From contig JARKQN010000119.1 of NCBI GenBank assembly GCA_029974835.1, forward strand, positions 1 through 32,197: a stretch of 32,197 nucleotides of DNA. Reading direction: 5' to 3'. Numbering within the stretch: position 1 is the first letter of the stretch; every line of letters starts with the position of its first letter. The position numbers and the translations under genes were made by a program. The notes under the pieces are model-generated. The model worked only from the letters and a program-made list of their open reading frames with translations, had not been told where the DNA came from and did no database searches. Source of the stretch: Bacteroidales bacterium. Lineage in GTDB: Bacteria > Bacteroidota > Bacteroidia > Bacteroidales > VadinHA17. Of the stretch, positions 5,899 to 29,989 are shown piece after piece.

Positions 5899-5909
5899 CA
5901 ATTACTGAG

Positions 5910-10928: not shown

Positions 10929-10957
10929 TTTTTTGCAGGCAGAAAAACAAATTGTGT

Positions 10958-11620: not shown

Positions 11621-11651
11621 TTCCATAAAATAATTCAGATTTGCAACTGTC

Positions 11652-11710
11652 TGTAGGTAAAATCTTACAAACTGAATGTATTTATGACTACAGGAATTAC
11701 AGGTTACATT
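11652..11710. promoter_or_regulatory. TGTAGG/TACA motif cluster upstream of the membrane kinase
   Basis: TGTAGGTAAAATCTTACA (11652-11669) is an imperfect inverted repeat. About 20 bases on, TACAGGAAT and TACAGGTTA are two direct half-sites (11689-11706). The same vocabulary (TGTAGGAA, CTACAGGA, CTTACA) recurs at 16851-16914. The gap of 128 bases between the regulator at 10958 and the kinase at 11749 therefore probably holds a controlled promoter. Confidence 0.45.
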
Positions 11711-11748
11711 ATTTATTTTTGAGAAAGGATCCTTAAAATCAAACCATC

Positions 11749-13944: not shown

Positions 13945-13962
13945 AATATAAATTAAATCTGT

Positions 13963-14415: not shown

Positions 14416-14451
14416 GAAGTAATTTTCACTGAGAATAAGAATTTAAAGTGA

Positions 14452-16764
14452 ATGGATAAACCTTTAAAAATACTACTTGTTGAAGATAACCCTGCCGATG
14501 CACAACTGGTACTGAAGCAGCTGAAAAGGGAAAAAATTGATTTTGCGGAAGAGCTGGTCGAAAACCAGGATCAATACGTTCAGGCTCTTGCAAACATGAA
14601 TCCGGATATTATTCTATCAGATTATACTCTTCCCAGGTTTGACGGCATGCAGGCACTGTTAATCAGGAACGAACTGAAGCCTAACATCCCGTTTATCCTT
14701 GTAACCGGCTCTGTCAATGAAGATGTGGCCGTAAAATGCATGAAGTCGGGAGCGGATGATTACATTATCAAAAAAAATTATTACAGGTTGGGCGAAGCAA
14801 TCCGGGCCGCCATTTCCAAAAGAGAACTTATAGCAAGGAAGGAAGAGGTAGAGAAAGAGCTCCAGAGGTCAAGGGAAGAGTTCAGATTGTACTTTGAAAA
14901 TGCTGCCGTTGGAATGAGTGTGACCTCTCCCGACCGCTCATTTCTTGAAATCAATAAGACCCTGTGTGAAATGACCGGTTACAGCAAAGAGGAGCTGACA
15001 GGTAAGAAATGGACAGATATTACATACCACGAAGACCTGGATAAGAATATGATTCTTTTTCAGGAAGCACTCGACGGGTTAAGGGACAACTATGCGTTGG
15101 ATAAACGGTTCATAAGAAAAGACGGATCTCTCGTTAATGTTGCTTTGTCGGTTGTCTGCATAAGAAATGAAGATGGCTCCGTAAAACATTTCCTCTCTTC
15201 TTACCTTGATATTACTGAAAGGATTAAACTTGAGGAAAATATCCGGCAGGAAAGGATGATGCTCAGAACACTTCTTGATAATCTCCCTAACCCAATATAT
15301 TTCCTCGACAGGTATGGAAAGAAAATACTGACCAACAAAGCAGATATCGCATTAGCCGGCCTGACCAAACCGGAGGAGGTTCTTTACAAAACTGACCTGG
15401 AATTATACCCGGGTGAGATAGGAGAACGGGGACATGCCGACAATATTTTTGTTCTCGAAACAGGGATGCCCATCATAAACAGGGAAGAGTATTTTTTTGA
15501 CAGAAATAACAGGAAAAGGTGGCTTTTAACCTCTAAGTTTCCCCTGAAGGATGCATCGGGAGCCGTTCAGGGGCTTGTTGGCATCGGGCATGATATTACC
15601 GAAAGAAAACTTTTCGAAAATGAGATGGTTAAGGCAAAGGAAAAAGCTGAGGAAAGTGACAGACTGAAAACAGCCTTCCTGCAGAATATCTCGCATGAAA
15701 TAAGAACCCCCCTTAACGCAATTGTCGGAGTCTCAACCCTTCTGAACGAAGAAGACATCGTTCAGACCGCCAGAAAATCATATGCCGAAATGATTGTCCA
15801 GAGCAGCAACCACCTGTTATCCGTAATTTCCGACATAGTTGACATTTCAAACATTGAGGCAAATATTGTCAAGATAAATAAATCCGAAACGGATATCGGT
15901 GCAATTTTAGCTTCTGTAAAAAGGCAATTTGAAAATGCTGCCTGGGAAAAAGGACTTCAATTTATCGTTGATAACAAGCTTAATGAGGATGAAAGAATAA
16001 TCATTACAGATAAGGCGAGGTTTACTCAGATATTAATCAATCTGGTAAATAACGCCGTAAAATTTACAGACAAGGGACACATTTCCGTGGTCGCCGAGCA
16101 TAAGGATAGCAATATCAGGGTTACAGTATCGGATACCGGTATCGGAATTCCACCCGAATTTCATGCAAGAATATTTGAAAGGTTTTTCAAGGTGCCACAT
16201 GCCGGACCTAAACTTTATGAAGGCACCGGACTTGGTCTCGCTATCTCGAAGGCATATGCCGGTCTTCTGGGTGGTAATTTAACGTTCTCTTCCCGCCCTG
16301 AAGCAGGTTCTTCTTTTGTTTTTACCGTTCCATATATTAAACCCGTTGCAGAAATAAAGGAATCAACCCAACCTGATTCCGAACAAAATCAGAGTTTCAG
16401 GGAAAAGAAAAGGATATTGATCGCCGAGGATATCGACAGTAACTACAAGCTTCTTACATATTTCATAAGGGACATAAATGCAGAACATGTTAGAGCAAGG
16501 AATGGAAAGGAGGCAGTTGAAATTTGCAAAAGGGGAGAGAATTTTGATCTGATACTCATGGACATAAAAATGCCTGAAATGGACGGATATACCGCAACCA
16601 GGCTGATCAGGGAGTTGTACCCCAACGTTCCGATTATTGCCCAGACCGCATATGCCGATGAGAGAGAACAGGTCATGAATTCAGGTTTTAATGCCTATAT
16701 CTCAAAACCATTTGATAAAAAACGATTGCTTTCCGTCATCTTTGATCTTGTCAGTCCCGTTTAA
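14452..16764 (+). CDS. Hybrid histidine kinase, REC-PAS-PAS-HisKA-HATPase-REC
   Basis: This 770-residue cytoplasmic hybrid kinase has a receiver at each end. REC1 (about 5-125) has D57 in LSDYTLP. Two PAS domains follow (about 143-260 and 268-385), then HisKA with H415 in NISHEIRTPLNA, an ATPase domain with DTGIGIP (561-567) and GTGLGLAI (591-598), and REC2 (about 652-765) with D704 in LMDIKMP. There is no membrane segment. An N-terminal receiver lets another kinase gate the activity, and the C-terminal receiver allows onward relay. REC1 is strikingly similar to the N-terminal receiver of the kinase at 17931 (shared SD-LP-F-G-QAL and ADDY--KKN blocks). It lies 36 bases after the Rcp1-like regulator, so it is probably cotranscribed with the genes from 11749. 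Confidence 0.93.
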   Translation: MDKPLKILLVEDNPADAQLVLKQLKREKIDFAEELVENQDQYVQALANMNPDIILSDYTLPRFDGMQALLIRNELKPNIPFILVTGSVNEDVAVKCMKSGADDYIIKKNYYRLGEAIRAAISKRELIARKEEVEKELQRSREEFRLYFENAAVGMSVTSPDRSFLEINKTLCEMTGYSKEELTGKKWTDITYHEDLDKNMILFQEALDGLRDNYALDKRFIRKDGSLVNVALSVVCIRNEDGSVKHFLSSYLDITERIKLEENIRQERMMLRTLLDNLPNPIYFLDRYGKKILTNKADIALAGLTKPEEVLYKTDLELYPGEIGERGHADNIFVLETGMPIINREEYFFDRNNRKRWLLTSKFPLKDASGAVQGLVGIGHDITERKLFENEMVKAKEKAEESDRLKTAFLQNISHEIRTPLNAIVGVSTLLNEEDIVQTARKSYAEMIVQSSNHLLSVISDIVDISNIEANIVKINKSETDIGAILASVKRQFENAAWEKGLQFIVDNKLNEDERIIITDKARFTQILINLVNNAVKFTDKGHISVVAEHKDSNIRVTVSDTGIGIPPEFHARIFERFFKVPHAGPKLYEGTGLGLAISKAYAGLLGGNLTFSSRPEAGSSFVFTVPYIKPVAEIKESTQPDSEQNQSFREKKRILIAEDIDSNYKLLTYFIRDINAEHVRARNGKEAVEICKRGENFDLILMDIKMPEMDGYTATRLIRELYPNVPIIAQTAYADEREQVMNSGFNAYISKPFDKKRLLSVIFDLVSPV

Positions 16765-16850
16765 AAAAAGACACAGGCATTTTAACTCACCAACAAGCCT
16801 CATCCCTGACAGCGTGCTCCAATGATTTTTTGATTTTCCGGATTGCAGAA

Positions 16851-16966
16851 TGTAGGAAAAATTCCTACAGGATAAGTCGGAATTCCTTACATGTAATCAG
16901 GAAAGAATCCTACATTATAAACAACAGTTTTACAATATCTTAGCTCAGGATTTACAAATTCCTGAG
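16851..16966. promoter_or_regulatory. Phased TCCTACA sites and start-proximal dyad upstream of the secreted-protein gene
   Basis: The 206-base gap before 16971 holds a perfect 8-bp inverted repeat TGTAGGAA-AAA-TTCCTACA (16851-16869), then TTCCTTACA (16883-16891) and ATCCTACA (16907-16914). The three TCCT(T)ACA elements start 21 and about 24 bases apart, near two helical turns. A second dyad, CTCAGGA...TCCTGAG (16944-16950/16960-16966), ends 4 bases before the ATG. The layout fits cooperative binding by a dimeric response regulator. The dyad next to the start could also affect translation. Confidence 0.5.
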
Positions 16967-16970
16967 AGCT

Positions 16971-17807
16971 ATGAAAAGGTATCTGATTCTTTCCCTTGCA
17001 GCAGCAGGTATTTACGGCCTGATTCCTTCCGCAGCACAGGAAACAGAGAAAAACAATTCTTTTACGACTCAGCAGGAAGAGAAGGGACCAGACGGCGGTA
17101 AAGGAGACAGGTCACTGTTAAGGATTGTTGCCGGGTATTCTGATAATATTGACTCTTTCGATCCGATGGTTATTTATTATGATTACAGGTCGACTTATAA
17201 TTTTGACAGTCAGTATGATGCCTTGAAGATTCCAAACACTGACCAGGCAGTCACAAATTTCTATGTTTTCAGCAATGATGCAAGAAGTCTGTCAATCAGC
17301 GCAATCCCCTATACCGGCGGTTCATCAGTAACTCTCCGCCTCGGAATTAAAACAGACCGAAGCTCTGAGGTTGTGATCAGGATAAGGGATATTTCAGGTA
17401 TTTATCTCGATAAATCAGTTGTACTTAAAGACCAGCAGACCGGAGCAGTAATAAATCTGAATGATGGCGGTGAATACAGGATTTTCCTGCCTGCAGGAGA
17501 TTATCAGCAGAGGTTTTATCTGACACTCTCTGATGCTGTTTTTACAGGGATCGAAAAAGAGTATACAGTAGCTGATCATATTTACGCATACAGCTCCGGA
17601 AATATGATCAGAGCCGAAATCAGAATCCCTGACGGGTCAAAAGGATTTTTATCGGTATTTTCTGCCTCCGGGCAATTATTGTTCGCTAAAAAAATAGAAG
17701 CCTCGGGTGATTATGAAATTATTCCTTTTCAGAAAAGCAGTATCTATATTGTCAGGTTCACAGAGGCTGGAAAGGCAGTATCCGTGAAAGTTCCCGGGAT
17801 TTTATAA
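16971..17807 (+). CDS. Secreted protein with type IX-secretion-like C-terminal domain
   Basis: This 278-residue protein has a signal peptide (about 1-22, ending SAAQ). The segment around 75-113 (FDSQYDALKIPNTDQAV, then FSNDARSLSISAIP) resembles a motif often found shortly before the C-terminal sorting domain in Bacteroidota type IX cargo. The last about 75 residues (203-278: GFLSVFSASGQLLF, then SSIYIVRFTEAGKAVSVKV) have the rhythm of a type A sorting domain, although the usual PNP near its start is absent. No catalytic motif is visible, and the N-terminal functional part is missing or very short. It is flanked by kinase genes and preceded by an unusually elaborate promoter, so it may be an output or a sensed surface component of this signalling block. 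Function unknown. Confidence 0.6.
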   Translation: MKRYLILSLAAAGIYGLIPSAAQETEKNNSFTTQQEEKGPDGGKGDRSLLRIVAGYSDNIDSFDPMVIYYDYRSTYNFDSQYDALKIPNTDQAVTNFYVFSNDARSLSISAIPYTGGSSVTLRLGIKTDRSSEVVIRIRDISGIYLDKSVVLKDQQTGAVINLNDGGEYRIFLPAGDYQQRFYLTLSDAVFTGIEKEYTVADHIYAYSSGNMIRAEIRIPDGSKGFLSVFSASGQLLFAKKIEASGDYEIIPFQKSSIYIVRFTEAGKAVSVKVPGIL

Positions 17808-17930
17808 ATTCAGTCAAAAATTTGTTTTTAGTTTTAAAGCATAATTTGTATTTTTACATATTTGATAATAAGACTGTTAGAGGCTTGAATTGAACAACCC
17901 CCGGGCTTATACCGTATTAAAGAGAAGCTG

Positions 17931-19397
17931 GTGGCAGAAAAACTGAAAATATTATTCATAGAGGATGACTTAAGCGATCTTAATCTGATATGTCATTATA
18001 TTGCCAGGAGTGATATTCAGTTTGAGAGACAGATTGTTACGACAGAATATGGATTTATTGAAGCACTCACGGAGCGTCAACCTGATATTATCCTGTCAGA
18101 TTTTTCATTGCCCCAGTTCAACGGATTACAGGCTCTTAAAATCAGGAATGAAATAAATCATTATGTTCCGTTTATTCTTATTACCGGCGCTGTCGATGAC
18201 GAAATTGCAGTTGAATGCATGAAACTGGGGGCAGATGACTATCTGCTGAAGAAGAACCTGACAAGGGTCGGACATGCCATTATTTCAGCTATCGAAAAGA
18301 AACGGGCAGTCAGGGAGAAGGAAATTGCGGAGAAAAACCTGATTGAAAGTGAAAAGAGGAATGCCCTGATTAACAATTCCACGCTTGATTTTATCTTAAG
18401 CTATGACCTTACCGGAAGGATAACCTATGCAAACAGGGCATTTTGTGAAGCTCTGGGAATGAGCTACGAACAAGTTACAGGCAGAAGGAACCAGGACCTG
18501 GGCTTAAGACCCGAAGATTCCAGACAGTTTGATTCAGCCATTCATGATGTAATTCTTAAGGGTGAAAGTCTCAGGAGAAGAATAAAATTTTCAAGTGACA
18601 ATTCAGGCTTAAGGCATTATGATGCATATATCCACCCGATTTTTAACTTTTCCTGCCTGTTGATTGGAATCAGCGCTATTTTAAGGGATATCACCGATAT
18701 TATTAACTATGAGGAGATGCTCAGAAATTCCAGGGATGAGCTGAGAGAACTTTCAAGAAAAATGGAGAGTATCCGTGAGATGGAAAGAAAGGAAATTGCA
18801 ATTAACCTCCACGACGACCTTGGTCAGAAACTCACAATCCTTAAGATGGGCCTGAATATGCTTAAAACCGGAGAGAAAACAGGTGATGCAGGGTTCATTG
18901 AAAAGGTTAATGATCTGATGCATATGGTGGATGATACCGTTAAAATAGTTCACAGGATATCATCCGATCTGAGACCTTCACTGCTCTATGACTTCGGACT
19001 CCAGGAAGCACTTAAATATCACCTTGAAGAATTCTCAGGAAATACTGCGATAAAATATGAACTTTCCATAATTCCGGATGACCTTAAAATGGATGAAGAA
19101 TTATCAGTTGTAGCATTCAGGATTATCCAGGAATCACTTACCAATACCGCAAGGCATTCAAAGGCAGAAAAAGTGAAGGTGGTCCTTCGGTTGATGGAGG
19201 AGGATATTTTCCTTGAAATCTCCGATGACGGTATTGGCATAAGGGAGTCTGATTTGATTAACCCCAACGCTTTTGGACTTACAGGCATACGGGAAAGGGC
19301 AAGGATTATGGGAGGTAAGGCTGAGATTACAGGGATCCCCGGAAGTGGTACTACAGTAAAAGTCACGATTCCGCTTAAAAAGATAATAAATGATTAA
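17931..19397 (+). CDS. REC-PAS histidine kinase (HisKA_3 type)
   Basis: This 488-residue cytoplasmic kinase probably starts at GTG 17931, since no in-frame ATG lies nearby and AGAGAAG sits just upstream. An N-terminal receiver (about 4-125) has D57 in LSDFSLP. A PAS domain follows (about 143-255), then a HisKA_3 domain with H294 in INLHDDLGQK and an ATPase domain with QESLTNTARHSKA (400-412) and DDGIGI (432-437). The receiver is paralogous to REC1 of the hybrid kinase at 14452, while the catalytic core is paralogous to the kinase at 8928, as if this gene combined both. Its last 8 bases overlap the downstream NarL-type regulator, so the two are translationally coupled partners. The N-terminal receiver would let the upstream kinases gate this pair. 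Confidence 0.92.
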   Translation: MAEKLKILFIEDDLSDLNLICHYIARSDIQFERQIVTTEYGFIEALTERQPDIILSDFSLPQFNGLQALKIRNEINHYVPFILITGAVDDEIAVECMKLGADDYLLKKNLTRVGHAIISAIEKKRAVREKEIAEKNLIESEKRNALINNSTLDFILSYDLTGRITYANRAFCEALGMSYEQVTGRRNQDLGLRPEDSRQFDSAIHDVILKGESLRRRIKFSSDNSGLRHYDAYIHPIFNFSCLLIGISAILRDITDIINYEEMLRNSRDELRELSRKMESIREMERKEIAINLHDDLGQKLTILKMGLNMLKTGEKTGDAGFIEKVNDLMHMVDDTVKIVHRISSDLRPSLLYDFGLQEALKYHLEEFSGNTAIKYELSIIPDDLKMDEELSVVAFRIIQESLTNTARHSKAEKVKVVLRLMEEDIFLEISDDGIGIRESDLINPNAFGLTGIRERARIMGGKAEITGIPGSGTTVKVTIPLKKIIND

Positions 19398-20025
19398 GGT
19401 ATTGATTACTGACGATCATCCGGTTGTAAGGCAGGGCATAAAAATGATCCTCGAGTCTGATCCTGCCAGGAGTTTCGGACCCATAGATGAGGCTTCTTCC
19501 GGCCAGGAGATGATGAATAAACTTGTAACATCAGGTTATGATATAATTGTTCTCGATATTTCAATGCCAGGGAGGAGCGGTCTCGATCTGCTGGGAGATA
19601 TCAAAAAGGGCTGGCCGGAAATTTCAGTGGTTATTTTAAGTATGCATCCTGAGGAACAATATGCAATAAAAGCCCTGAAAATGGGTGCTTCAGCATATCT
19701 TACCAAAACAAGCGCAACCGAAGAGCTGATTTCCTGCCTTTTGAAAGTGAGAGAAGGAGGCAGGTATATTACGCGCTCCCTGGCCGAAAAGATCTCCATG
19801 GCCGTTCTTGATGAAACGGAGAAACCCGTTACCGAGAAATTATCGGCAAGAGAGCTTGAAGTTGTGACATTGCTGGCATCAGGCAAAACAATATCCGCAA
19901 TAGCCGGGGAATTGTCGTTAAGCCCCAAAACCATAAGTACCTACCGTGAACGAATTCTCGAAAAGCTTAAACTGAAAACCACCTCGGATATAATACGCTT
20001 TGCCCTGAAGGAGGGACTTGTTTAA
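19390..20025 (+). CDS. NarL/FixJ-family DNA-binding response regulator
   Basis: This 211-residue regulator has a receiver domain (1-120) with DD at 8-9, phospho-acceptor D56 in LDISMP and the conserved lysine in LTKTS. A LuxR-type helix-turn-helix follows (about 146-207: LSARELEVVTLLASGKT, LSPKTISTYRERI). It overlaps the preceding kinase gene by 8 bases, the usual sign of a cognate pair. Its sequence closely parallels the regulator at 10958 (shared DDHPVVR-G, LDISMPGRSGLD-type and SPKT-STYR-RI blocks). The corrinoid operon starts 213 bases downstream, so that operon is one plausible target, besides the TGTAGG motif promoters. Confidence 0.93.
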   Translation: MIKVLITDDHPVVRQGIKMILESDPARSFGPIDEASSGQEMMNKLVTSGYDIIVLDISMPGRSGLDLLGDIKKGWPEISVVILSMHPEEQYAIKALKMGASAYLTKTSATEELISCLLKVREGGRYITRSLAEKISMAVLDETEKPVTEKLSARELEVVTLLASGKTISAIAGELSLSPKTISTYRERILEKLKLKTTSDIIRFALKEGLV

Positions 20026-20238: not shown

Positions 20239-20907
20239 ATGGAAGAAATCCTTAAACAATTGTCATATTGTGTCGAAATGGGGAAAATTAACAAGGCATC
20301 TCCCTATCCGCCTTCGCTGAAAGACCAGGAAGGCGCCGATGAGCTTGCAAGGAAAGCTCTCGACGCGGGTATCAGTCCGGGTGTTCTTCTCGAAGAGGCA
20401 CTCATTCCGGCCATGACAATCGTCGGCAATAAGTTCAGCCGGCAGGAAATATTCGTTCCTCAGATGCTGATGTCGGCAAAGGCGATGAGCAGCGCAATGG
20501 CGCACCTTAAACCTTTTTTCCTTTCGGGTGAAACAAAAAGGAAAGGTACCTTTATAATCGGTACGGTTACGGGCGACCTTCACGATATCGGAAAGAATCT
20601 GGTTGCAATGATGGTGGAAGGCGGAGGATGGGAAGTTGTTGACGTGGGTGTTGATGCCGGGGCAGTAAAATTCTTTAATGCCATCAGCCGGCATCCCGAC
20701 GCAATTGTGGGTCTTTCGGCTCTGCTTACGACAACAATGGATAATATGAAGAAAATCGTGGAAGAGATCAAAAGTAAAGACCCCGCAAGGACAATTCTGG
20801 TCGGAGGTGCTCCGGTAACAATGGAGTTCTGTCAGAAAATTGGAGCCGACTTCTATTCTCCCGATCCCCAGGGGGCTGTCAATTATCTTAATAAACTGGT
20901 TTCATAG
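20239..20907 (+). CDS. Corrinoid (B12-binding) methyl-carrier protein
   Basis: This is a 222-residue corrinoid protein of the MtaC/MtmC/MtvC-like class. The N-terminal helical cap domain (about 1-90) covers the cofactor. The Rossmann-like B12 domain (about 100-222) carries the base-off/His-on motif GDLHDIGKN, with the cobalt-ligating H115, plus the SALLTTTM and GGAPV segments typical of the fold. The protein carries a methyl group on cobalt between methyltransferases. I chose ATG 20239 because the extra 29 residues from TTG 20152 have no family counterpart. The next gene, a methyl-THF:corrinoid methyltransferase, follows after 7 bases and is its natural partner. The other methyl donor or acceptor is not encoded nearby. 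Confidence 0.92.
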   Translation: MEEILKQLSYCVEMGKINKASPYPPSLKDQEGADELARKALDAGISPGVLLEEALIPAMTIVGNKFSRQEIFVPQMLMSAKAMSSAMAHLKPFFLSGETKRKGTFIIGTVTGDLHDIGKNLVAMMVEGGGWEVVDVGVDAGAVKFFNAISRHPDAIVGLSALLTTTMDNMKKIVEEIKSKDPARTILVGGAPVTMEFCQKIGADFYSPDPQGAVNYLNKLVS

Positions 20908-20914
20908 AAATAAC

Positions 20915-21763
20915 ATGGAAACAATACTCAGGGGCACGACCCGCGAAGTTGTAATCAGCACTGCAGGGCCGGTGGTGATTATCGGAGAGTGTATCAATCC
21001 CACGCGGAGGAAAAAACTGGTATCAACACTCCGGGAGGGAAATTTTGAATATGTACTTGAACTGGCACGCGAACAAATCGATGATTTTGCCGATGTACTT
21101 GACGTAAATGTAGGATTCCCGGGTGTGGAGGATGAGAAGTTGCTTCCTGAAGTCGTGAAAGCACTTGAGGATAATTTCGACATCCCGCTTTGCCTCGATT
21201 CGCCCAACCCGAAAGCCATTGAGGCAGCCCTTAAGGTTTCGAAGGGGAAATGTCTTATTAACTCTGTAAACGGAGAGGAAAGATCGCTTAGGGCGCTTCT
21301 GCCGGTAGCAAAGGAATACGGGGCTGCAATAATAGGTCTGGTGATGGATGATGACGGCATTACACACGATCCGGAGAAGAGGCTGGCAATAGCAGGAAAA
21401 ATAATAAACAGGGCCGTAGCAGAAGGAATCCCTGCAGCAGACGTTATCATCGACCCCCTTGCAATGGCCGTGAGCGCCGACCCCGGGGCATGCATGGTGA
21501 CCCTCGGAACAATTAAACTTATCAGTTCACGGCTGGGTCACAACATGACGATGGGAGCAAGCAATATTTCATTCGGACTTCCCGAAAGAGAATACCTTAA
21601 CTCGTCATTCCTTGCACTTGCCATAGCCGCAGGTATAACCTGTCCGATTGCCCATCCCGGAAAATCAGCAATGGCAGTGAGGGCAACCGACCTTGTGCTG
21701 GGCAGGGATGACTATGCCATCAGGTACATTGAAGCGGCTCAGAAGCTGAAAAAGAACACATAA
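20915..21763 (+). CDS. Methyltetrahydrofolate:corrinoid methyltransferase (AcsE/MetH pterin-domain type)
   Basis: This 282-residue TIM-barrel enzyme of the pterin-binding family moves methyl between tetrahydrofolate and a corrinoid protein. Motifs in order are GECINPT (24-30), DVNVGFPG (63-70), the LDSPNP loop (94-99), LINSVNGE (114-121), IIDPLAM (178-184) and GASNISFGLP (214-223), the last being a hallmark of this family. The frame is open from 20840, but ATG 20915 follows the upstream stop by 7 bases and gives the normal length. It corresponds to the pterin module of MetH or to AcsE of acetogens, and could act in either direction. Four bases separate it from the MetV-MetF gene. Confidence 0.93.
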   Translation: METILRGTTREVVISTAGPVVIIGECINPTRRKKLVSTLREGNFEYVLELAREQIDDFADVLDVNVGFPGVEDEKLLPEVVKALEDNFDIPLCLDSPNPKAIEAALKVSKGKCLINSVNGEERSLRALLPVAKEYGAAIIGLVMDDDGITHDPEKRLAIAGKIINRAVAEGIPAADVIIDPLAMAVSADPGACMVTLGTIKLISSRLGHNMTMGASNISFGLPEREYLNSSFLALAIAAGITCPIAHPGKSAMAVRATDLVLGRDDYAIRYIEAAQKLKKNT

Positions 21764-21767
21764 AGAC

Positions 21768-23222
21768 ATGGCGTTATTCACACCGGTTCGAAGATGGCAG
21801 CCTCCTTTTCTTCCCTTTAAGCGACAGAAGTTCTCATTAAGGCTGCTGGCATGGATTGAACGGGTCGTAAAGGGACCTCTTTTCGGATGCCGTATGTGCG
21901 GTAACTGCCTTTTACAGGAGACAGCATTTATCTGCCCGATGGAATGCCCGAAGGGTCTGCGTAACGGCCCGTGCGGCGGTTCAACACCTGAGTACTGCTA
22001 TGTCGATAAAACCAGGAAATGTGTCTGGTATCTGATATACAGGAGAGCATTCAGCAAGGGCAGGGAGGAAAAACTTATGGAGGTACTGCCACCGCTCGAT
22101 TGGGAAAAGGTTGGGGGTGAAACATGGGCTGATGTGGTAAGGCAGCTGCGGAAAACCGGTACAGGGAAATTTTTCAGGGGAATGCTTTCACGAAACCCTG
22201 AAGTCCGTAACGAGACATGGGAAAACGTATTTCGCCCTGTGCGACAGCCTGAATGGTGGAACGGAGATGCAGTTTATCATCCTTCCTCTAATCACGAATC
22301 GGCAGGCAGCCTCGAAAGGAGGCTGAAAAACGGGGAATTTGTGTTCACCACGGAAGTCATTCCGCCGCTGCATCCCGATATATCAAGACTTAAAAAGAAT
22401 ATAGAAGCAGTAAAACCGTTTGTTTCAGCTTTAAATTTTACCGATAATTCCGCTGCCGTCCCAAGGATGTCGGGTCAGGCCTGCTGTAAAGTTGCGGCCT
22501 CAATGGGAGCTGACCCCGTGCTGCAACTGACCGGACGCGATAATAACCGTTACAGCCTCCAGGCAAAAGCCCTTGGCGCGAATATGGAGGGAATAAAAAA
22601 TATTCTGTGTATCACCGGCGACAGCCCCGTAATAGGAAGTAAACCAACAGGATCACTTGAAATGTTCGATCTCGACGCCGTGCAGATGCTCTGGATTCTG
22701 AGAAGAATGAGAGATGAGGGGAAATATCTCGACGGCCGTGAAATAAAATGCAAACCATCATATTTTCTGGGAGCTGCGGCTTCGCCTTTTGCATCAAAAC
22801 CAAAATACCAGGCATGGAGAGAACATAAAAAAGTCAATGCCGGAGCACAGTTCCTTCAAACCAACCTGATATTTGATGTCGATGGACTGGAAGAGTGGCT
22901 TGAAGAACTTTACAGGAAAGACATACTCGACAAAGTATATATTATTGTCGGCATTGCCCCTCTGAGAAGCCTCAGGATGGCAAATCACCTCAGGTACGAA
23001 GTGCCGGGAGTAGTTGTGCCTGACAGTGTCGTCAGAAGGATTGAGAAAGCTGGTGATGAAGCGGGAGAGGAGGGTATTCAGATAGCACTTGAATTGACTG
23101 AGAAAATCAGGAAGATGAGAGGAGTGAACGGCATTCACCTTACAACAATGGGATGTGAAAGCACAGTGGAAAGAATAGTAAGGGAATCGGGTGCAATTAT
23201 TGATGATACAGGACGGCCATGA
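21768..23222 (+). CDS. MetV-MetF fusion: methylenetetrahydrofolate reductase with N-terminal zinc/cysteine domain
   Basis: This 484-residue protein has an N-terminal cysteine-rich MetV-like domain (about 35-130; cysteines at 41, 44, 47, 56, 60, 69, 77 and 85, with GPCGG). A MetF TIM barrel follows (about 187-480), with the flavin-enzyme motifs TTEVIPPLHPD (194-204, E196 as the likely catalytic acid), TDNSAAVPRMS, QLTGRDNN and CITGDSP. In many anaerobes MetV and MetF are separate subunits; here they are one chain, MetV first. The enzyme interconverts methylene- and methyl-THF. An unknown electron partner is expected, because MetV-type proteins usually link MetF to other donors. The stop codon overlaps the next start (ATGA), so the pair is translationally coupled. 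Confidence 0.88.
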   Translation: MALFTPVRRWQPPFLPFKRQKFSLRLLAWIERVVKGPLFGCRMCGNCLLQETAFICPMECPKGLRNGPCGGSTPEYCYVDKTRKCVWYLIYRRAFSKGREEKLMEVLPPLDWEKVGGETWADVVRQLRKTGTGKFFRGMLSRNPEVRNETWENVFRPVRQPEWWNGDAVYHPSSNHESAGSLERRLKNGEFVFTTEVIPPLHPDISRLKKNIEAVKPFVSALNFTDNSAAVPRMSGQACCKVAASMGADPVLQLTGRDNNRYSLQAKALGANMEGIKNILCITGDSPVIGSKPTGSLEMFDLDAVQMLWILRRMRDEGKYLDGREIKCKPSYFLGAAASPFASKPKYQAWREHKKVNAGAQFLQTNLIFDVDGLEEWLEELYRKDILDKVYIIVGIAPLRSLRMANHLRYEVPGVVVPDSVVRRIEKAGDEAGEEGIQIALELTEKIRKMRGVNGIHLTTMGCESTVERIVRESGAIIDDTGRP

Positions 23223-23920
23223 AAAGATATACATACCGGTTCGGATTTGACGAACTGGATATTGATCCGGTAAAAATCGGCCGCCTGATCGACCACGAAA
23301 AGGGCGGAGACAATGACCTTATTGCAGAAATTATAGAAGATACCCTGAAGGAAGCTGCAGGTATATGCGACATCAGGGCCGAGTTTGCAATATTTGATGA
23401 TGTTTCGGCCGATAAAGCCTCCGGTACTCTCAGAATAAACGGGATAGATTTCAAGGCAGGTAAAATCATCGTAACTCAGTTAAGAAAAATTGAGAAAGCC
23501 GCCGTTTTTCTCTGTACGGCAGGCCCGGGTCCGGGAGAGAGGGCAGGGCAGCTGTTGAAGGAGAAGGATTTTCTCAGGGGCTATATCCTCGACATAACCG
23601 GCAGCGAAATTGCCGAGTCTGCAGCCGATTTGATGCAGGAGAAACTGAAAAATATTGCCGGAGCAGAGGGTCATTCAATAACCAACCGTTACAGTCCGGG
23701 TTACTGCGGCTGGGATGTCGCGGAACAGCATAAGCTTTTAAGCCTGCTGCCCGATAATTTCTGCGGCATTAGGCTTACCGGGTCTGCCCTTATGATACCT
23801 GTTAAGTCGGTAAGCGGCATAATAGGAATAGGAAGAAATGTCAGGTTCAGCGATTACACATGCAGCCTTTGTGATGATCAAAACTGCATTTACAGGCGCC
23901 TGAAGGAGAAGAGTCAGTAA
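23219..23920 (+). CDS. Stand-alone MetH activation-domain-like protein
   Basis: This 233-residue protein resembles the S-adenosylmethionine-binding reactivation domain of cobalamin-dependent methionine synthase. The key segment RYSPGYCGWDVAEQ (157-170) corresponds to the family's R-x-SPGY-x-x-W signature, and MIPVKSVSGIIGIG (192-205) matches its core. The C-terminus adds a cysteine cluster, CSLCDDQNC (C215, C218, C223), as in free-standing clostridial forms. Its expected role is reductive reactivation of oxidised cob(II)alamin on the corrinoid protein at 20239. It overlaps the MetV-MetF gene by 4 bases and the convergent DUF6807 gene by 7 bases. An RACE-type ATP-dependent activator is absent here. 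Confidence 0.82.
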   Translation: MKRYTYRFGFDELDIDPVKIGRLIDHEKGGDNDLIAEIIEDTLKEAAGICDIRAEFAIFDDVSADKASGTLRINGIDFKAGKIIVTQLRKIEKAAVFLCTAGPGPGERAGQLLKEKDFLRGYILDITGSEIAESAADLMQEKLKNIAGAEGHSITNRYSPGYCGWDVAEQHKLLSLLPDNFCGIRLTGSALMIPVKSVSGIIGIGRNVRFSDYTCSLCDDQNCIYRRLKEKSQ

Positions 23921-24822
23921 CTTTTCCTGCTGAAATCCGAGAATATTTCCCCTATGCGTGCCTGAGAAGCATCGCCCGAGTGCACCAGCACAAGATACCT
24001 GAGGGCAAGAACTGTTCCCTTTTTCATAAAGATATCCTTATCGTTTTCGGGCCAGTACATTGGTGTGGGCGACATGAAACCATAGTCACGTGTGAACCAC
24101 GGTGCGGGATACCAGGGGTTTGAAGGATGCTGCAGGATTGCTATCCCCTCAGTAACAGCTCCTCTTTTGCCATAAAAACCGAGCCATGCCGATTTTTTCC
24201 CAAAGGTTTCCTTTTCGCTTCTGAGGCCTTCGGCATTGATCATGGTGCCTCCGTATTTTACCGATATGTCAGGGGCCGTTCTCACGGAAAAGAATGAGTG
24301 GTTGGTTTTAAGTATCCTGACATCAGTAAGCATTTCCATTACTATTTCAGCTTCGATCTGATAGAGGTCCTTTGATGGTGAGGTAATCGTAAATTTTCTC
24401 CTGTCTTTTATCGGAGAGACTGCACCGGGTCTGCTCCAGATGCATTCATCGGTGATAATGACCGTATCGCCTCCCTGTTTAATTATTTCGGGGTTGACTG
24501 AGATTATTCTGCCCCTTTCCAGGCCTTCCTGCCACCAGTTGCCACCGTTAACAAGATCGCATCCGAAGAAAAGCGAGCTGTGATGAGGATACTCTGCGTT
24601 TCTCATGGAAGTAACGGAAAGTCCTGTTGCGGGGCCGTTAACAGGAAAGAAGAAAGGATATTTTTCGTCCTCTGAAAAAATATAACTGGTAAAAAACTTA
24701 CCGTCGACCGACACATTAATTTTTGTGCCGACGCGTACTGCTGTGATTTTGGCCGCAGAGGCGGGCAACGATAAAAGGATAGCCCCGGCAAATGCCAGGG
24801 CTGAATATTTAAAGATTTTCAT
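23914..24822 (-). CDS. DUF6807 (PmoA-like) secreted protein
   Basis: This 302-residue protein has a signal peptide (about 1-23, ending ASA). The fold family is often labelled PmoA or DUF6807 in databases, but it is unrelated in role to methane monooxygenase. Signatures are YPFFFPVNGPATG (55-67), YPHHSSLFFG (78-87) and NGGNWWQEG (92-100), with a conserved histidine pair that could bind a metal or sugar. Family members in Bacteroidota lie next to Gfo/Idh/MocA oxidoreductases and sugar-processing genes, as here (4 bases after the oxidoreductase). A periplasmic sugar role is inferred; the reaction is unknown. Its 3' end overlaps the convergent C1 operon by 7 bases. Confidence 0.78.
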   Translation of the reverse strand: MKIFKYSALAFAGAILLSLPASAAKITAVRVGTKINVSVDGKFFTSYIFSEDEKYPFFFPVNGPATGLSVTSMRNAEYPHHSSLFFGCDLVNGGNWWQEGLERGRIISVNPEIIKQGGDTVIITDECIWSRPGAVSPIKDRRKFTITSPSKDLYQIEAEIVMEMLTDVRILKTNHSFFSVRTAPDISVKYGGTMINAEGLRSEKETFGKKSAWLGFYGKRGAVTEGIAILQHPSNPWYPAPWFTRDYGFMSPTPMYWPENDKDIFMKKGTVLALRYLVLVHSGDASQARIGEIFSDFSRKSY

Positions 24823-24826
24823 GTAT

Positions 24827-26200
24827 TTACATATTTATATAGTTTGTTCCATAGGGTTTTCTCTGCGGCCTCGACAACATTTTATTGGCTTCGTCATCGT
24901 TTATAAACAGTTCTTTTGCCGGATCCCATTTGAGTCTTCTTCCGAGCTTCATTGCAATGTGGGTGATAAGGCACACGGTACAAGCATAGTGCCCGATATC
25001 GACCGGCGAGATGGGTTCTTTGCGCGATTTTATGCAGTCGAGCCAGTTACCCTGCTGGTTATTGCTTACGTAGAGATGAATTTCATTTTCTCCGATTGGA
25101 GCCAGGATTTTCGGATCGCTTGCCGATAGCGGTGGATTATCCTGACCCTGTGGTATCGGGTCGCTTTCCGTTGCCCTGTAATTGCCGCGTGTAACAAAAA
25201 TCCACCCATCGGTTCCTTCATACCTTATGCCGTTTGGATATCCTCCGCTTGTGAGCATGGTTATGCCGTTGGCGTAAACAGCTTTTGCCATAAAGTCGCC
25301 GTGAACATCCCATAGTCCGGATTTCGGGAAATCAGCGACTGCTTCTATTGAAACCGGCGTAGTATGCTCGGTATCCATTCCCCACATGGCGGAGTCAAAG
25401 TGGTGCTGTCCCCATCCGGTTATCATTCCTGCACCGAACTGTTCGCATCTAAGCCATCCTGGCCTGTCAGTAATGCTGTTTTGCGGATGAACTCTCATCT
25501 CGGTGTAATACACATAAGGAGTGGAACCGAGCCACATATCGTAATTAAGGTTTTTGGGTATCGGCATCTCCGGTGCCTCGGGGCCTGAGGGATCACCCGG
25601 CAGACCAATCTTCACGGTATGAAGCTTTCCTATTCTTCCGTTTCTCACCAGCTCGGCGGCAACCCTGAACTGGGCGCTGGACCTCTGCTGTGTTCCCACC
25701 TGCAGGATGACTTTCTTACGTTTGACGACGTCAACAAGCTGTCTTCCTTCCACGACCGTCAAGGAAGTGGGTTTTTCAAGATAAATGTCCTTGCCGGCCA
25801 GCGCTGCCTCTATTGCAGGCTGGGCATGCCAGTGATCGGGAGTTGTTATCATTACGGCATCGATCGATTTATCGAGAAGCATCTCTTTGTAATCGCCGTA
25901 CATTCTGACGTTGGAATACTTGCTGTTGCCGGTCTGTTTGGTATAGAAGTCGTCGATCATCTTCTTGCCGATCTCCATTCTCCTCGAATCGACGTCGGAG
26001 CAGGCGACGAACATGCATGAGTCAAATCTGAGGGTTCCTCTTACATCTCCTGTTCCCTGTCTGCCGCAGCCTATCCATCCGATATTAATTCTGTCGCTCG
26101 GCGGGTTTTTGCCTATCACGGATGCAGGCACAATAGTGGGAATAACGATTGTTCCTGCTGCTGCAGAAACGGTGCTGGTAATGAATTTTCTTCTTTTCAT
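24827..26200 (-). CDS. Tat-exported Gfo/Idh/MocA-family oxidoreductase
   Basis: This 457-residue NAD(P)-dependent sugar oxidoreductase-like protein begins with a twin-arginine type signal (RRKFITSTVSAAAG), so it is probably folded with cofactor in the cytoplasm and exported. The nucleotide-binding motif is GWIGCGRQG (41-49), EKP is at 142-144, and GQHHFDSAMW (264-273) includes the family's G-x-H-x-x-D catalytic region with H266. Such exported members oxidise or rearrange sugars, some using a tightly bound NAD cycle to cleave glycosides. It is the first gene of a two-gene minus-strand operon with the DUF6807 gene and diverges from the LacI-type regulator across 198 bases. The exact substrate is unknown; a xylan- or glucuronate-derived sugar is inferred. 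Confidence 0.88.
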   Translation of the reverse strand: MKRRKFITSTVSAAAGTIVIPTIVPASVIGKNPPSDRINIGWIGCGRQGTGDVRGTLRFDSCMFVACSDVDSRRMEIGKKMIDDFYTKQTGNSKYSNVRMYGDYKEMLLDKSIDAVMITTPDHWHAQPAIEAALAGKDIYLEKPTSLTVVEGRQLVDVVKRKKVILQVGTQQRSSAQFRVAAELVRNGRIGKLHTVKIGLPGDPSGPEAPEMPIPKNLNYDMWLGSTPYVYYTEMRVHPQNSITDRPGWLRCEQFGAGMITGWGQHHFDSAMWGMDTEHTTPVSIEAVADFPKSGLWDVHGDFMAKAVYANGITMLTSGGYPNGIRYEGTDGWIFVTRGNYRATESDPIPQGQDNPPLSASDPKILAPIGENEIHLYVSNNQQGNWLDCIKSRKEPISPVDIGHYACTVCLITHIAMKLGRRLKWDPAKELFINDDEANKMLSRPQRKPYGTNYINM

Positions 26201-26332: not shown

Positions 26333-26348
26333 TTGCAATCGGTTGCAT
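26333..26348. promoter_or_regulatory. LacI/GalR-type operator candidate
   Basis: TTGCAATCGGTTGCAT is a near-palindrome centred on CG (between 26340 and 26341), matching the GCAA-nCGn-TTGC pattern of LacI/GalR-family operators. It lies 50 bases upstream of the LacI-type gene and in the promoter gap shared with the divergent oxidoreductase gene, so autoregulation and control of the divergent operon are both plausible. Confidence 0.6.
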
Positions 26349-26398: not shown

Positions 26399-27427
26399 AT
26401 GAAAGAAGAGAAAGATGTAACAATCTATGATATTGCTGAAAAGCTGGGTATTTCACCGTCAACAGTCAGCAGGGCGCTCAGCAATCATAAGGGTATCAGC
26501 GAAAGGACAAGACTCCGTATTCAGGATACTGCCCGTAAGATGAATTACCGTCCGAACAGGTTTGCAAGCAGCCTGAGGTTAAAGAAAACGTTAACACTGG
26601 GAGTTCTTGTTCCAAAACTGAACAGTTACTTTATGGCTTCAGTGATAGCAGGTATAGAGAGTGTTGCCAGCAGGTATGGCTATAATCTTATCATTGCAAA
26701 TTCCCAGGAGAGCGGGAAAAAGGAAGCTGAGGGGTTGTACACACTGTATAACAGCAGGGTGGACGGAATGATTGTTTCACTGGCTTATGACACCAGCAGT
26801 ATGAAGCATTTCAGCATGGTTTTGAAAAAAGGTATCCCTGTTGTTTTTTTTGACCGTGTTTCCGAATGCAATGGGTGTGCAAGAGTTTACATTGATAATG
26901 TAAAGGCCGGGTATGAGGTAACTTCACATCTGGTGCAACAGGGTTGCAGAAGGATAATGCATGTGGGAGGCAATATGCTCAGAAATGTCTACCGCGACAG
27001 ATATATTGGGTACAAAAAGGCACTCGAAGAGAGCGGTCTGGAATACAGGGAGTCGCTGGTGGTGGTTAATGATTTAACGGAAAGAGCTGGAGCAGAGGTT
27101 GCTGGAAAGATACTGAAAATGAAAGATCTGCCTGATGCAGTGTTTACCTCGAATGACACTACGGCGGTTTCGATCATTCTGAATCTTAAGAAAGAGGGAG
27201 TATCGGTACCCGGCGACATTGCCATTGCAGGATTTAACAACGAGCCTGTCAGCAGGGTAATTGAGCCCAATCTGACCACAGTGAATTATCCTGCCAGAGA
27301 GGTGGGGGAAACGGCTGCCATGACTTTGGTTAACAATCTGACATCGGAATTGAATAATACGGGGTCGGATATTGTACTAAGGCACGAGCTTATAGTGAGA
27401 GAATCATCGATGAAGAAGGCAGTTTGA
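26399..27427 (+). CDS. LacI-family transcriptional regulator
   Basis: This 342-residue sugar-responsive regulator has an N-terminal helix-turn-helix (about 7-60: VTIYDIAEKLGISPSTVSRALSNH is the DNA-reading part), a hinge helix near RPNRFASSLR, and a periplasmic-binding-protein-like effector domain (about 65-335, with FDRVS, FTSNDTTA and IAGFNNEP). Length and architecture are standard for the family. It lies divergent to the oxidoreductase/DUF6807 operon and upstream of the GH67-SDR-ManD genes, with a matching operator candidate 50 bases before its start. The inducer is probably a uronate or xylose-derived sugar, inferred only from neighbours. Confidence 0.94.
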   Translation: MKEEKDVTIYDIAEKLGISPSTVSRALSNHKGISERTRLRIQDTARKMNYRPNRFASSLRLKKTLTLGVLVPKLNSYFMASVIAGIESVASRYGYNLIIANSQESGKKEAEGLYTLYNSRVDGMIVSLAYDTSSMKHFSMVLKKGIPVVFFDRVSECNGCARVYIDNVKAGYEVTSHLVQQGCRRIMHVGGNMLRNVYRDRYIGYKKALEESGLEYRESLVVVNDLTERAGAEVAGKILKMKDLPDAVFTSNDTTAVSIILNLKKEGVSVPGDIAIAGFNNEPVSRVIEPNLTTVNYPAREVGETAAMTLVNNLTSELNNTGSDIVLRHELIVRESSMKKAV

Positions 27428-27802
27428 ATTATGGAGGTTTGCAAAATGAGGGAGTTTCTGCGTATGATGAGATCTGGTCGGGTGCGGCAGTTTTCTGAGA
27501 GGCTGGTAAGCGATTTGGCGGGTAGGAGTGAGCCGGGAGGTTGTCAGATTAGAAAAATTATCAAATAAAAAAAATTCTCAAATAAGAAATTTTATCAGGT
27601 AATAAAAATTATTAAATAATAAAATTTATCAAATAGAAATATTTTTCAAATAAGAAATTTTATCAGATAGTAAAAATTCTTAAGTAATAAGAAATATCAA
27701 ATAGTAAGAATTATTAAATAAGAAAAATTATCAAATAATAAAAAATACAAAACAGTAAAAACTACAATCCGGAACCGGCCCCGCAACCTTACGAAAACAT
27801 TA
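27428..27802. other. 375-bp intergenic region, lacI-type gene to GH67 gene
   Basis: There is no gene. The first about 110 bases are G-rich unique sequence without a clear terminator. The rest is the 17-bp tandem array described separately, then a short stretch CCGGAACCGGCCCCGCAACC (27770-27789) before the GH67 start. No TAnnTTTG promoter is obvious. Confidence 0.6.
27541..27766. repeat. Degenerate 17-bp tandem repeat, about 13 units in strict register
   Basis: The core TTATC (or a one- or two-base variant) recurs every 17 bases without an indel at 27541, 27558, 27575, 27592, 27609, 27626, 27643, 27660, 27677, 27694, 27711 and 27728, with weaker units at 27745 and 27762. The consensus unit is close to TTATCAAATAATAAAAA. 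The array fills most of the gap between the LacI-type gene and the GH67 gene and ends about 36 bases before the GH67 start. It is not a CRISPR, as there are no unique spacers between repeats. Its strong A/T content may bend DNA or act on the downstream promoter; function unknown. Confidence 0.85.
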
Positions 27803-29989
27803 ATGAACAGAAAATTAATTATTATGAAAAGCTCGTACAATCCGATAATCCTTGCCTTAATCGCCCTGTTCTCCGCTGCCACACCGGCTGCCCCTGAATC
27901 AGGGTACCGGCTCTGGCTGAGATATGACAGAATCTCCGACCCCGCAACCCTGACACTCTACCGCAAAAACATCACCGGCTTTGTAATCCCGGGCGAAAGC
28001 CCGCTTATTAAATCAGCAAGACAGGAACTCAGTACCGGTCTTTCAGGCCTGCTCGGTCAGAATATCCCTGAACTCAGAAGCCCTGCCAGATCTCCCTTTC
28101 TGATTGCAGGAACACCGGCATCGTCAAAAATTATCCGATCACTGATCCCCCCCGAGGACCTTCTGAAAACAGGTGATGAGGGTTTCATAATACGCTCTGC
28201 CATTTACCGTAAAAACAAAATTATTGTCATCACAGCCAATACCGAAAAGGGTATCCTTTACGGCTCATTCTTCTTTCTCCGCCTTCTTCAGACTCATTCG
28301 GATATCTCCGCGCTTAACATCTCCGAGGCACCCAAAACCAAAGTGCGTATTCTTAATCACTGGGATAACCTTGACAGATCGGTAGAAAGAGGCTATGCAG
28401 GTCTTTCGCTCTGGGATTGGGCCGCCCTGCCCGACAGCTTATCACCCCGCTATACCGACTACGCCAGAGCCAATGCCTCAATCGGGATTAACAGCACAGT
28501 CCTTACCAATGTCAATGCCAACGCTATGGTGCTGACAACCGATTATCTGAAAAAAGTGGCTGCCCTGGCAGATATATTCCGGCCTTACGGCATAAAAGTT
28601 TATCTTACGGCACGCTTCAGTGCTCCGGTCGAGACAGGTAAGCTAAAAACGGCCGACCCTCTCGACCCGGAAGTCATTGCCTGGTGGAAGAATAAAGTCG
28701 AAGAGATTTACAGTTATATCCCCGACTTCGGGGGCTTTACCGTAAAGGCAAACTCCGAAGGACAGCCCGGCCCCCAGAATTACAACCGTTCACACGCCGA
28801 CGGAGCCAACATGCTTGCCGATGCCCTGGCACCTCACGGCGGAATAGTGATGTGGAGGGCATTCGTTTATGACAATAACGTTCCCGACGACAGGGCTAAA
28901 CAGGCATATAATGAATTCGTGCCTCTCGACGGTAAATTCAGGGAGAATGTCCTTATACAGGTTAAAAACGGACCAATCGATTTCCAGCCCCGCGAACCTT
29001 TTCACCCCCTTTTCGGAGCCATGCCGAAAACAAATATTATGCCTGAACTCCAGATAACACAGGAATACCTGGGGGCTTCCGTGCACCTGGTCTACCTCGC
29101 ACCACTGTTCGAAGAGTGCCTGAAATCTGATACTTATGCAAGAGGAAAAGGATCAACAGTAGCTTCGGTAATTGACGGTTCTCTTTTCGGACACAGTCTA
29201 ACAGCCATGGCAGGTGTTGCAAATACCGGCAGCGCCGAAAACTGGACAGGGCATCCTTTTGCACAGGCAAACTGGTACTCCTTCGGACGACTGGCATGGA
29301 ATCCTTATGAGAAATCTGAAAAAATTGCCGAAGAATGGATCAGAATGACTTTCTCAAATAACCAGGATTGCATTGACGGAATGAAAAAAATCATGATGTC
29401 ATCGTGGGAAAACACAATCAAATATATGACTCCGCTGGGCCTTCATCACATAATGTACTCTGGTCATCATTATGGTCCGGGCCCGTGGGTGAACAGGGGC
29501 AGGCAGGATTGGACATCGGTATATTACCACCGTGCCGATTCATCAGGAATAGGATTCAACAGGACAACAACCGGCAGCGATGCCGTATCCCAATACTTCA
29601 GTCCGGTAAAAGAGATGTTCAATAATGTTGAAACATGCCCCGAAAACCTTCTGCTGTGGTTTCATCACCTGCCATGGGATTACAGAATGAAATCGGGCAG
29701 AACCCTGTGGGAAGAACTTTGTTATGAATATCACGAGGGAGTAAACGCCGTGAGACAAATGAGAAAAGAATGGCAGAAACTGCAAAACTGCACCGACAGG
29801 GAAAGATTTGAACAGGTAAGCGGACTGATGGAAAAACAGGAACGGGATGCAATAATCTGGAGGGACGGCTGCCTGCTTTATTTCCAGTCTTTCTCCAGGA
29901 AAGAAATACCATCCGGCCTTGAGAAACCTGCTTTTAATCTGAATTATTACATAAACCATAAATATACCGACATCCCGGGAATAAGATAA
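27803..29989 (+). CDS. GH67 alpha-glucuronidase
   Basis: This 728-residue enzyme removes terminal alpha-1,2-linked (4-O-methyl-)glucuronate from aldouronic acids released from glucuronoxylan. The N-terminal region has a signal peptide (M1 or, more neatly, from M8 at 27824) and a GH67N-type domain (about 35-170). The catalytic barrel (about 175-500) shows E319 in VKANSEGQPGP as the expected general acid, D393 in NGPIDFQPREP and E421 in LQITQEYLG, spaced as in characterised GH67 enzymes. The C-terminal helical domain (about 500-725) includes the conserved HHLPWDYRMKSGRTLWEEL-like segment. SDR and ManD genes follow within 11 bases each, so it heads a glucuronate operon. GH10 products from the xylanase at 763 are its natural substrate. 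Periplasmic location is inferred. Confidence 0.95.
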   Translation: MNRKLIIMKSSYNPIILALIALFSAATPAAPESGYRLWLRYDRISDPATLTLYRKNITGFVIPGESPLIKSARQELSTGLSGLLGQNIPELRSPARSPFLIAGTPASSKIIRSLIPPEDLLKTGDEGFIIRSAIYRKNKIIVITANTEKGILYGSFFFLRLLQTHSDISALNISEAPKTKVRILNHWDNLDRSVERGYAGLSLWDWAALPDSLSPRYTDYARANASIGINSTVLTNVNANAMVLTTDYLKKVAALADIFRPYGIKVYLTARFSAPVETGKLKTADPLDPEVIAWWKNKVEEIYSYIPDFGGFTVKANSEGQPGPQNYNRSHADGANMLADALAPHGGIVMWRAFVYDNNVPDDRAKQAYNEFVPLDGKFRENVLIQVKNGPIDFQPREPFHPLFGAMPKTNIMPELQITQEYLGASVHLVYLAPLFEECLKSDTYARGKGSTVASVIDGSLFGHSLTAMAGVANTGSAENWTGHPFAQANWYSFGRLAWNPYEKSEKIAEEWIRMTFSNNQDCIDGMKKIMMSSWENTIKYMTPLGLHHIMYSGHHYGPGPWVNRGRQDWTSVYYHRADSSGIGFNRTTTGSDAVSQYFSPVKEMFNNVETCPENLLLWFHHLPWDYRMKSGRTLWEELCYEYHEGVNAVRQMRKEWQKLQNCTDRERFEQVSGLMEKQERDAIIWRDGCLLYFQSFSRKEIPSGLEKPAFNLNYYINHKYTDIPGIR

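Follow-up and report, generated by a model that had tools for sequence, protein, structure and literature searches.

The window analysed here, 32,197 nucleotides of contig JARKQN010000119.1 from a Bacteroidales bacterium, carries an operon for one-carbon (C1) metabolism at 20239-23920, located between genes of the xylan-degrading glycoside hydrolase (GH) families 10 and 67. An earlier reading of the window, below called the original prediction, held at its core that a UroD-fold methyltransferase should be tied to this operon. Such a protein, which we call UroDMT, exists and is tied to the operon through its gene neighbourhood in relatives, its co-occurrence with operon genes and a single joint loss. 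The best explanation as a whole is that the operon and UroDMT demethylate a plant sugar, most likely methylglucuronate, a reading that we regard as evenly poised between right and wrong. Its parts are not equally firm. Corrinoid-dependent demethylation with participation of UroDMT appears highly probable, and a sugar-type ether is the rather likely substrate. Methylglucuronate is the best single candidate in this organism, unproven and with about an even chance of being correct.

The C1 operon and its candidate partner UroDMT

The operon comprises four forward-strand genes that are closely spaced, 7, 4 and -4 bases apart. The first gene (20239-20907, with ATG at 20239) encodes CORR, a corrinoid (B12-binding) methyl-carrier protein with B12-binding_2 (PF02607) and B12-binding (PF02310) domains. 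Its translation contains D-L-H-D-I-G, in agreement with the D-x-H-x-x-G motif of corrinoid proteins. The second product, PTMT (20915-21763), matches PF00809 (Pterin_bind) with 93 bits. It is a probable methyl-tetrahydrofolate (methyl-THF):corrinoid methyltransferase, assigned by family, its best NCBIfam match (PRK07535) scoring 254.6 bits and thus below the cut-off of 259. METVF (21768-23222) is a MetV-MetF fusion of the methylene-THF reductase type, with PF12225 (DUF5981) and PF02219 (MTHFR). The last gene (23219-23920) encodes ACTdom, a MetH-activation-like protein with a Met_synt_B12 domain (PF02965, 36.7 bits, cut-off 25; alignment A3), probably serving corrinoid reactivation. The four-part operon of the original prediction (corrinoid protein, methyl-THF:corrinoid methyltransferase, MetV-MetF and reactivation protein) is therefore confirmed by gene spacing and domain matches. 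A domain scan of the window operon found no RACo-type ATP-dependent activator (the rest of the own genome was not screened with PF14574), and the MetH-like activator is present instead. According to alignment A3, standalone MetH-activation-like proteins have a conserved C-terminal cysteine motif, C-x-x-C...C-x-Y, which the organism's own MetH lacks. A glycoside hydrolase is next in the C1 operon of the sister genome G112, whose GH3 gene shares 4 bases with ACTdom.

The window proteins that were scanned include no substrate-specific methyltransferase, a gap that the original prediction had also noted. It had proposed a search of the genome for a UroD-fold methyltransferase of the MtaB/MtvB kind, and one exists. 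The own genome (2.9 Mb, 92% complete) encodes a single UroD-family protein, UroDMT (contig C39:10137-11171, 344 residues). MttB had no match in this genome as assembled, and a methyltransferase of that type was set aside as the substrate enzyme on this ground. Two proteins of the own genome contain a B12-binding_2 domain, MetH (contig C63) and CORR. With one UroD-family protein, no MttB match and only CORR besides MetH, the assembled genome offers CORR a single candidate partner among these two folds.

UroDMT scored under all NCBIfam cut-offs (best 56.6 bits versus 244), including those of the hemE model (46.6 bits, cut-off 302.95) and of TIGR01463 (53 bits, cut-off 235). Where HemE has its catalytic histidine, in a C-terminal G-H-G segment, UroDMT has G-G-G and thus a glycine in place of the histidine. 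With this residue absent and the score far below the hemE cut-off, we rejected the possibility that UroDMT is the uroporphyrinogen decarboxylase HemE. The predicted model of UroDMT (pLDDT 90.5) could be superimposed on MtaA of Methanosarcina mazei (4ay8_A) with TM-scores of 0.80/0.81, and HemE structures fit nearly as well. Alignment A1 leaves out a near-duplicate and a partial sequence and so covers 17/19 UroDMT genomes; D206, D207 and H240-N-D242 are invariant in 17/17 of its sequences. At the place of H-x-C in the H-x-C...C zinc site of the MtaA/CmuA type, UroDMT has H-N-D. UroDMT is thus like the UroD-fold methylcobamide methyltransferases MtaA, MtbA and CmuA in its fold and in a weak sequence kinship (to TIGR01463), but unlike MtaA in its H-N-D motif and in a later cysteine that is not invariant.

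The link between UroDMT and the operon was examined in two sets of genomes. The named-genome set consisted of the best 80 of at least 554 confirmed stretches, leans to the nearest relatives and includes cultured strains recorded as Maribellus, Mariniphaga and Draconibacterium; the UroDMT label was recovered in 77 of these 80 loci, overlapping frames having apparently been picked in the remaining three. The order sample comprised 295 genomes, 19 with and 276 without UroDMT, and 18 UroDMT loci were compared. Presence lists behind the co-occurrence counts were compiled by hand, relatedness of the genomes is not modelled in the counts, and Pfam scans covered part of the neighbour genes. CORR (at least 55% identity) was present in 17/19 UroDMT genomes versus 14/276 others, the two exceptions being genomes of 76% and 80% completeness. 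In L081 and L082, UroDMT directly adjoins CORR and ACTdom. The substrate methyltransferase is thus genetically linked to the operon via relatives; in the own genome, UroDMT is not adjacent to it. The co-loss concerns G294, a genome of the same genus, in which UroDMT, CORR and GH67 are all without a match. Its operon (L058:7889-10133) is decayed, with a deletion that fuses CORR residues 2-43 to PTMT residues 195-276 and with residues 123-228 of ACTdom remaining, and METVF is whole. In L197, L205, L206, L210, L212 and L213, the UroD protein beside CORR is more distant, with 20-25% identity to UroDMT, so that the partnership of this corrinoid protein family with UroD-fold enzymes seems to extend beyond UroDMT.

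UroDMT begins within the last 4 bases of gcvP in the own genome (L006:7246-11171). The same gene order is common in a Bacteroidales group (many of L084 to L116), and GcvP was matched in 30/80 named loci. Two frames on C39, 6-9 kb upstream of UroDMT, resemble GH51 and GH10 by eye. Downstream, UroDMT is followed by a DUF6807 protein and then by a Gfo/Idh/MocA-type protein (PF16490; GFOc39). The window likewise has a protein of each kind, on the reverse strand: DUF6807w (23914-24822, PF14100) and the oxidoreductase GFOw (24827-26200, PF01408/PF19051). These two genes occupy the stretch between the C1 operon and the GH67 side and are convergent with the operon. Orthologues of GFOw and DUF6807w flank UroDMT in relatives, e.g., in L070, L075 and L119. 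At least one of the two Gfo/Idh/MocA or the two DUF6807 types (at least 40% identity) was found near UroDMT in 73/80 named loci, and GFOw and DUF6807w had no match within the 19-kb stretch of G294.

GFOw has a twin-arginine-like start, as do 33/35 of its relatives (at least 50% identity). By eye, GFOc39 has a lipobox-like start and both DUF6807 proteins have signal-like starts; UroDMT has none of these. The export-type starts, in part read by eye, place GFOw, GFOc39 and both DUF6807 proteins outside the cytoplasm, where they would act on the sugar before its uptake. We therefore dropped the idea that the Gfo/Idh/MocA enzymes are directly coupled to UroDMT in one compartment. The predicted model of the DUF6807 protein (pLDDT 79) gave weak matches to mutarotase- and glycosidase-type sandwiches (TM-scores to the query 0.30-0.48).

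From the observed parts, families, fold, neighbourhoods, co-occurrence, co-loss and operator motif (see below), we infer the direction of flow, each reaction and the substrate as follows. The operon would be the shuttle half and UroDMT the substrate half of a corrinoid-dependent O-demethylase. A methylated plant sugar would be set free and processed by exported GH67, Gfo/Idh/MocA and DUF6807 proteins. UroDMT would then transfer the ether methyl group to CORR in the cytoplasm, and PTMT would hand it from CORR to tetrahydrofolate. METVF would oxidise methyl-THF to methylene-THF for the C1 pool, to be used by the glycine cleavage system or, as relatives suggest, for formate, and ACTdom would re-reduce oxidised corrinoid. 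The methyl ether in this organism would most likely be the 4-O-methyl group of xylan glucuronate. The formate branch is suggested by L055, which has the gene order GntR-type regulator, CORR, PTMT, METVF, formate-THF ligase, formate channel and RACo-type activator, and by L054 and L057, where CORR, formate-THF ligase, PTMT and METVF lie near one another (L054 also has a RACo protein). These gene sets fit methyl-THF oxidation toward formate.

A LacI-type operator and the xylan connection

The window encodes a LacI-family regulator (26399-27427, forward strand, PF00356). Between GFOw and this gene lies a LacI-type palindrome, TTGCAATCGGTTGCAT (26333-26348). A 53% identical relative of the regulator precedes UroDMT by 36 bases in L072/L073, loci of G043 and G248, which belong to one genus of family f44. 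Facing this pair are genes for a SASA-type esterase, a glucuronoyl esterase (PF22244) and GH115, and the gap between the LacI-UroDMT region and these genes contains TTGCAATCGGTTGCAA. In both genomes, 3/3 operator sites lie at glucuronoxylan-type genes, namely in the UroDMT/GH115 gap, at the start of GH67-SDR-ManD, and at SusCD.

The operator pattern was searched, with at most one mismatch, in 30 chosen genomes (19 with and 11 without UroDMT) and yielded 27 sites in 14/30 genomes, compared with 2 sites for the reversed control. Context was viewed for 23 of the 27 forward sites, in some cases against reference proteins only (one site in G176, one in G018 and two in G055 were left out). Among the 23, 10 were the window site or lay at GH67, GH115, UroDMT or SusCD, 2 were beside another LacI gene, 1 preceded the C7 operon described below, and 10 were elsewhere or inside frames. 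Individual sites include one in G247 between an MFS-GH3-GH115 run and SDR-ManD, an exact one in G018 (a genome without UroDMT match) that lies 110 bases inside a called LacI frame next to GH67, and an exact one in G223 between SusCD and LacI. The shared operator sites point to a regulon of methylglucuronoxylan-type genes, to which UroDMT belongs in one genus and to which, judging by the motif, GFOw-DUF6807w of the window belong as well.

A second operator of the own genome, with one mismatch, is located on contig C7 (L230) at 9336, before genes for RraA-like, DUF362, transaldolase-like, DHDPS-like, 2-hydroxyacid dehydrogenase and PfkB proteins, a gene run that possibly serves sugar-acid breakdown. 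A different LacI protein (41-42% identity) with a variant operator, e.g., GTGCAATCGATTGCAA, is found next to the UroDMT cluster in L137, L156 and L163. In L137, where this was confirmed, the variant operator faces KduI, SDR, GH95 and 3-keto-disaccharide hydrolase genes, and L156 and L163 have neighbours of similar size.

Substrate and alternative explanations

Plant xylan commonly bears side chains of 4-O-methylglucuronate. GH67 or GH115 was enriched with UroDMT, being found in 14/19 UroDMT genomes versus 35/276 others, and with strict matches (E<1e-100) in 11/19 versus 33/276. Together with the regulator type and operator that UroDMT shares with methylglucuronoxylan genes in another family, this keeps the demethylation of 4-O-methylglucuronate, as proposed in the original prediction, in the leading position. 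It is not proven.

Several observations weigh against it. The control family GH28 was likewise enriched with UroDMT (14/19 versus 70/276), which weakens the GH67/GH115 association as substrate proof. Stratification gave GH67/GH115, with versus without UroDMT, in 11/14 versus 27/70 GH28-positive and in 3/5 versus 8/206 GH28-negative genomes; conversely, GH28 was present in 11/14 versus 27/35 GH67/GH115-positive and in 3/5 versus 43/241 negative genomes. The original prediction had named occurrence of the operon in relatives without xylan genes as evidence against itself, and this was found in part: G007 and G125 have CORR, PTMT, METVF and UroDMT without a GH67/GH115 match, and G112 retains operon and UroDMT with a GH67 cut to residues 8-291. 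G014, G270 and G228 also have UroDMT without GH67 or GH115. References for GH67, GH115, GH10 and GH51, the xylan families looked for there, matched 0/80 named UroDMT neighbourhoods. The loci L072/L073, source of the xylan link, have no Gfo/Idh/MocA or DUF6807 gene within the stretch, and the UroDMT of L072 (G248) is 49% identical to that of the window, so that a shared substrate of the two is an extrapolation. In the own genome, no operator (up to two mismatches) was found at UroDMT or the C1 operon. The Gfo/Idh/MocA and DUF6807 link was weaker in the evenly drawn order sample (9/18 loci) than in the nearest 80. Finally, MetV was present in only 5/19 UroDMT genomes, so other members would dispose of the methyl group differently. 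A protein of about 540 residues (539-541) is encoded beside or near CORR in L196, L198, L199, L200 and L205; the one that was scanned (L199:10052-11671) joins an MtaA-like UroD domain to a thioredoxin-like domain. In genomes without MetV, this protein may pass the methyl group to a thiol.

In a rival reading, the same machinery acts on other O-methyl sugars or cyclitols; the substrate of the family at large would be, e.g., a methylated sugar from polysaccharides that are sulfated or rich in side chains, and the xylan link in the window and in G043/G248 would be a local recruitment. We consider this possible, though less likely than methylglucuronate. Besides the genomes with C1 genes and UroDMT that have no GH67/GH115, it is favoured by the varied neighbours of UroDMT, which include sulfatase (L075, L083), GH2 (L119), ThuA (L071, L118) and, in L137, KduI together with GH95 and 3-keto-disaccharide hydrolase. 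In a UroDMT tree built by a quick method from 62 of 101 rows (named-genome rows were thinned to about half), a clade of eight rows carries different residues after H-N-D; of the five UroDMT genomes without GH67/GH115, four belong to this clade, which may have another substrate. The UroDMT proteins of the window and of G043/G248 fall outside it, and outside it GH67 or GH115 was present in 10/11 UroDMT genomes (7/11 with strict matches; G228, known from a partial sequence absent from the tree, was assigned to this group). These counts, and the operator and regulator that join UroDMT to glucuronoxylan genes in G043/G248, argue against a general preference for other sugars.

Known corrinoid O-demethylases act on aryl methyl ethers, and glucuronoyl esterase, encoded near UroDMT in L072/L073, cleaves lignin-carbohydrate esters. 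The substrate might accordingly be ferulate, vanillate or another methoxylated aromatic on xylan or lignin, as in acetogens. We judge this unlikely, since the partner genes encode sugar oxidoreductases, DUF6807 proteins and glycoside hydrolases, and no aromatic-degradation or feruloyl esterase gene was seen among the neighbours scanned, which were part of all neighbours (no genome-wide search was made). The resemblance of CORR, PTMT and ACTdom to modules of MetH, and the overlap of UroDMT with gcvP, could also be read as signs of a biosynthetic operon or a split methionine synthase rather than a demethylation shuttle. This seems very improbable: the domain scan revealed no module for homocysteine binding among the operon products, C63 encodes a MetH frame of 1225 residues, CORR tracks UroDMT across genomes, and GH3 is next in the G112 operon. 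The split methionine synthase was rejected for lack of the homocysteine module in the operon and presence of the MetH-length frame elsewhere. The best NCBIfam match of PTMT is a model for methyl-THF:corrinoid/iron-sulfur protein methyltransferases, and MetV is typical of Wood-Ljungdahl-type pathways, but an acetogenic or reversed Wood-Ljungdahl methyl branch deserves hardly any credence. The acetyl-CoA synthase CdhC was found in 0/29 genomes with UroDMT or MetV, the own genome included (8% of which is missing), and this reading was rejected on that count.

Relation to known systems and other features of the window

The four-component corrinoid O-demethylases of acetogens (Acetobacterium Odm/Vdm type) consist of a substrate methyltransferase, a corrinoid protein, a methyl-THF:corrinoid methyltransferase and a reactivating protein. 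All four kinds of component, together with a MetV-MetF type reductase, are found here as well. Unlike in that system, the candidate substrate enzyme UroDMT belongs to a UroD-fold group of its own, encoded next to sugar genes, the operon's activator is MetH-like and not RACo-type, CdhC is lacking, and the host is Bacteroidota-like, judging from its SusC/SusD pair and its nearest named relatives. ACTdom resembles the standalone MetH activation protein of the Thermotoga type in being a standalone Met_synt_B12 domain, but differs in its extra C-terminal cysteine motif and in sharing an operon with a dedicated corrinoid protein. In marine Bacteroidota, a P450 demethylates 6-O-methylgalactose; there, too, a methyl ether is taken off a polysaccharide sugar, but in an oxygen-dependent reaction, unlike the corrinoid route proposed here.

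To our knowledge, anaerobic bacterial removal of the 4-O-methyl group of methylglucuronate has not been described. Full-text searching gave nothing on its oxygen-free demethylation, a weak negative, since most queries required all terms together. The chemistry proposed here is of a known kind, and the substrate class would be new if confirmed. With about equal readiness to believe and to doubt, we suggest a widespread oxygen-free system of Bacteroidota in which UroDMT is a sugar O-demethylase, exported Gfo/Idh/MocA and DUF6807 proteins prepare the substrate, the methyl group enters the folate pool, and 4-O-methylglucuronate is one of the substrates. If true, genes could be named for the removal of the methyl group, plant polysaccharide breakdown would be tied to one-carbon metabolism, and both the UroD-family group of the confirmed stretches and DUF6807 would gain a function.

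The xylan genes of the original prediction (GH10, GH67, SDR and ManD) were all recovered in the window by domain-model matches. A GH10 xylanase family protein (763-2073, reverse strand, PF00331) is followed on the forward strand by a SusC-like and SusD-like pair (2665-7889, with genes at 2665-5898 and 5910-7889; PF07715, PF07980). At the other end, and also on the forward strand, are GH67 alpha-glucuronidase (27803-29989, PF07488/PF07477/PF03648), an SDR dehydrogenase (30001-30768, PF13561) with an inferred role in uronate breakdown, and the D-mannonate dehydratase ManD (30780-31988; NF043051, 673 bits, cut-off 550). The order GH67-SDR-ManD is conserved in L233/L234. Immediately 5' of the C1 operon, positions 8928-20025 encode a series of PAS/GAF histidine kinases, a hybrid kinase and a LuxR-type regulator. 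The gap between the LacI gene and GH67 contains an AT-rich tandem array (27553-27744) of about 11 copies with a period of 17, and also with a period of 68.

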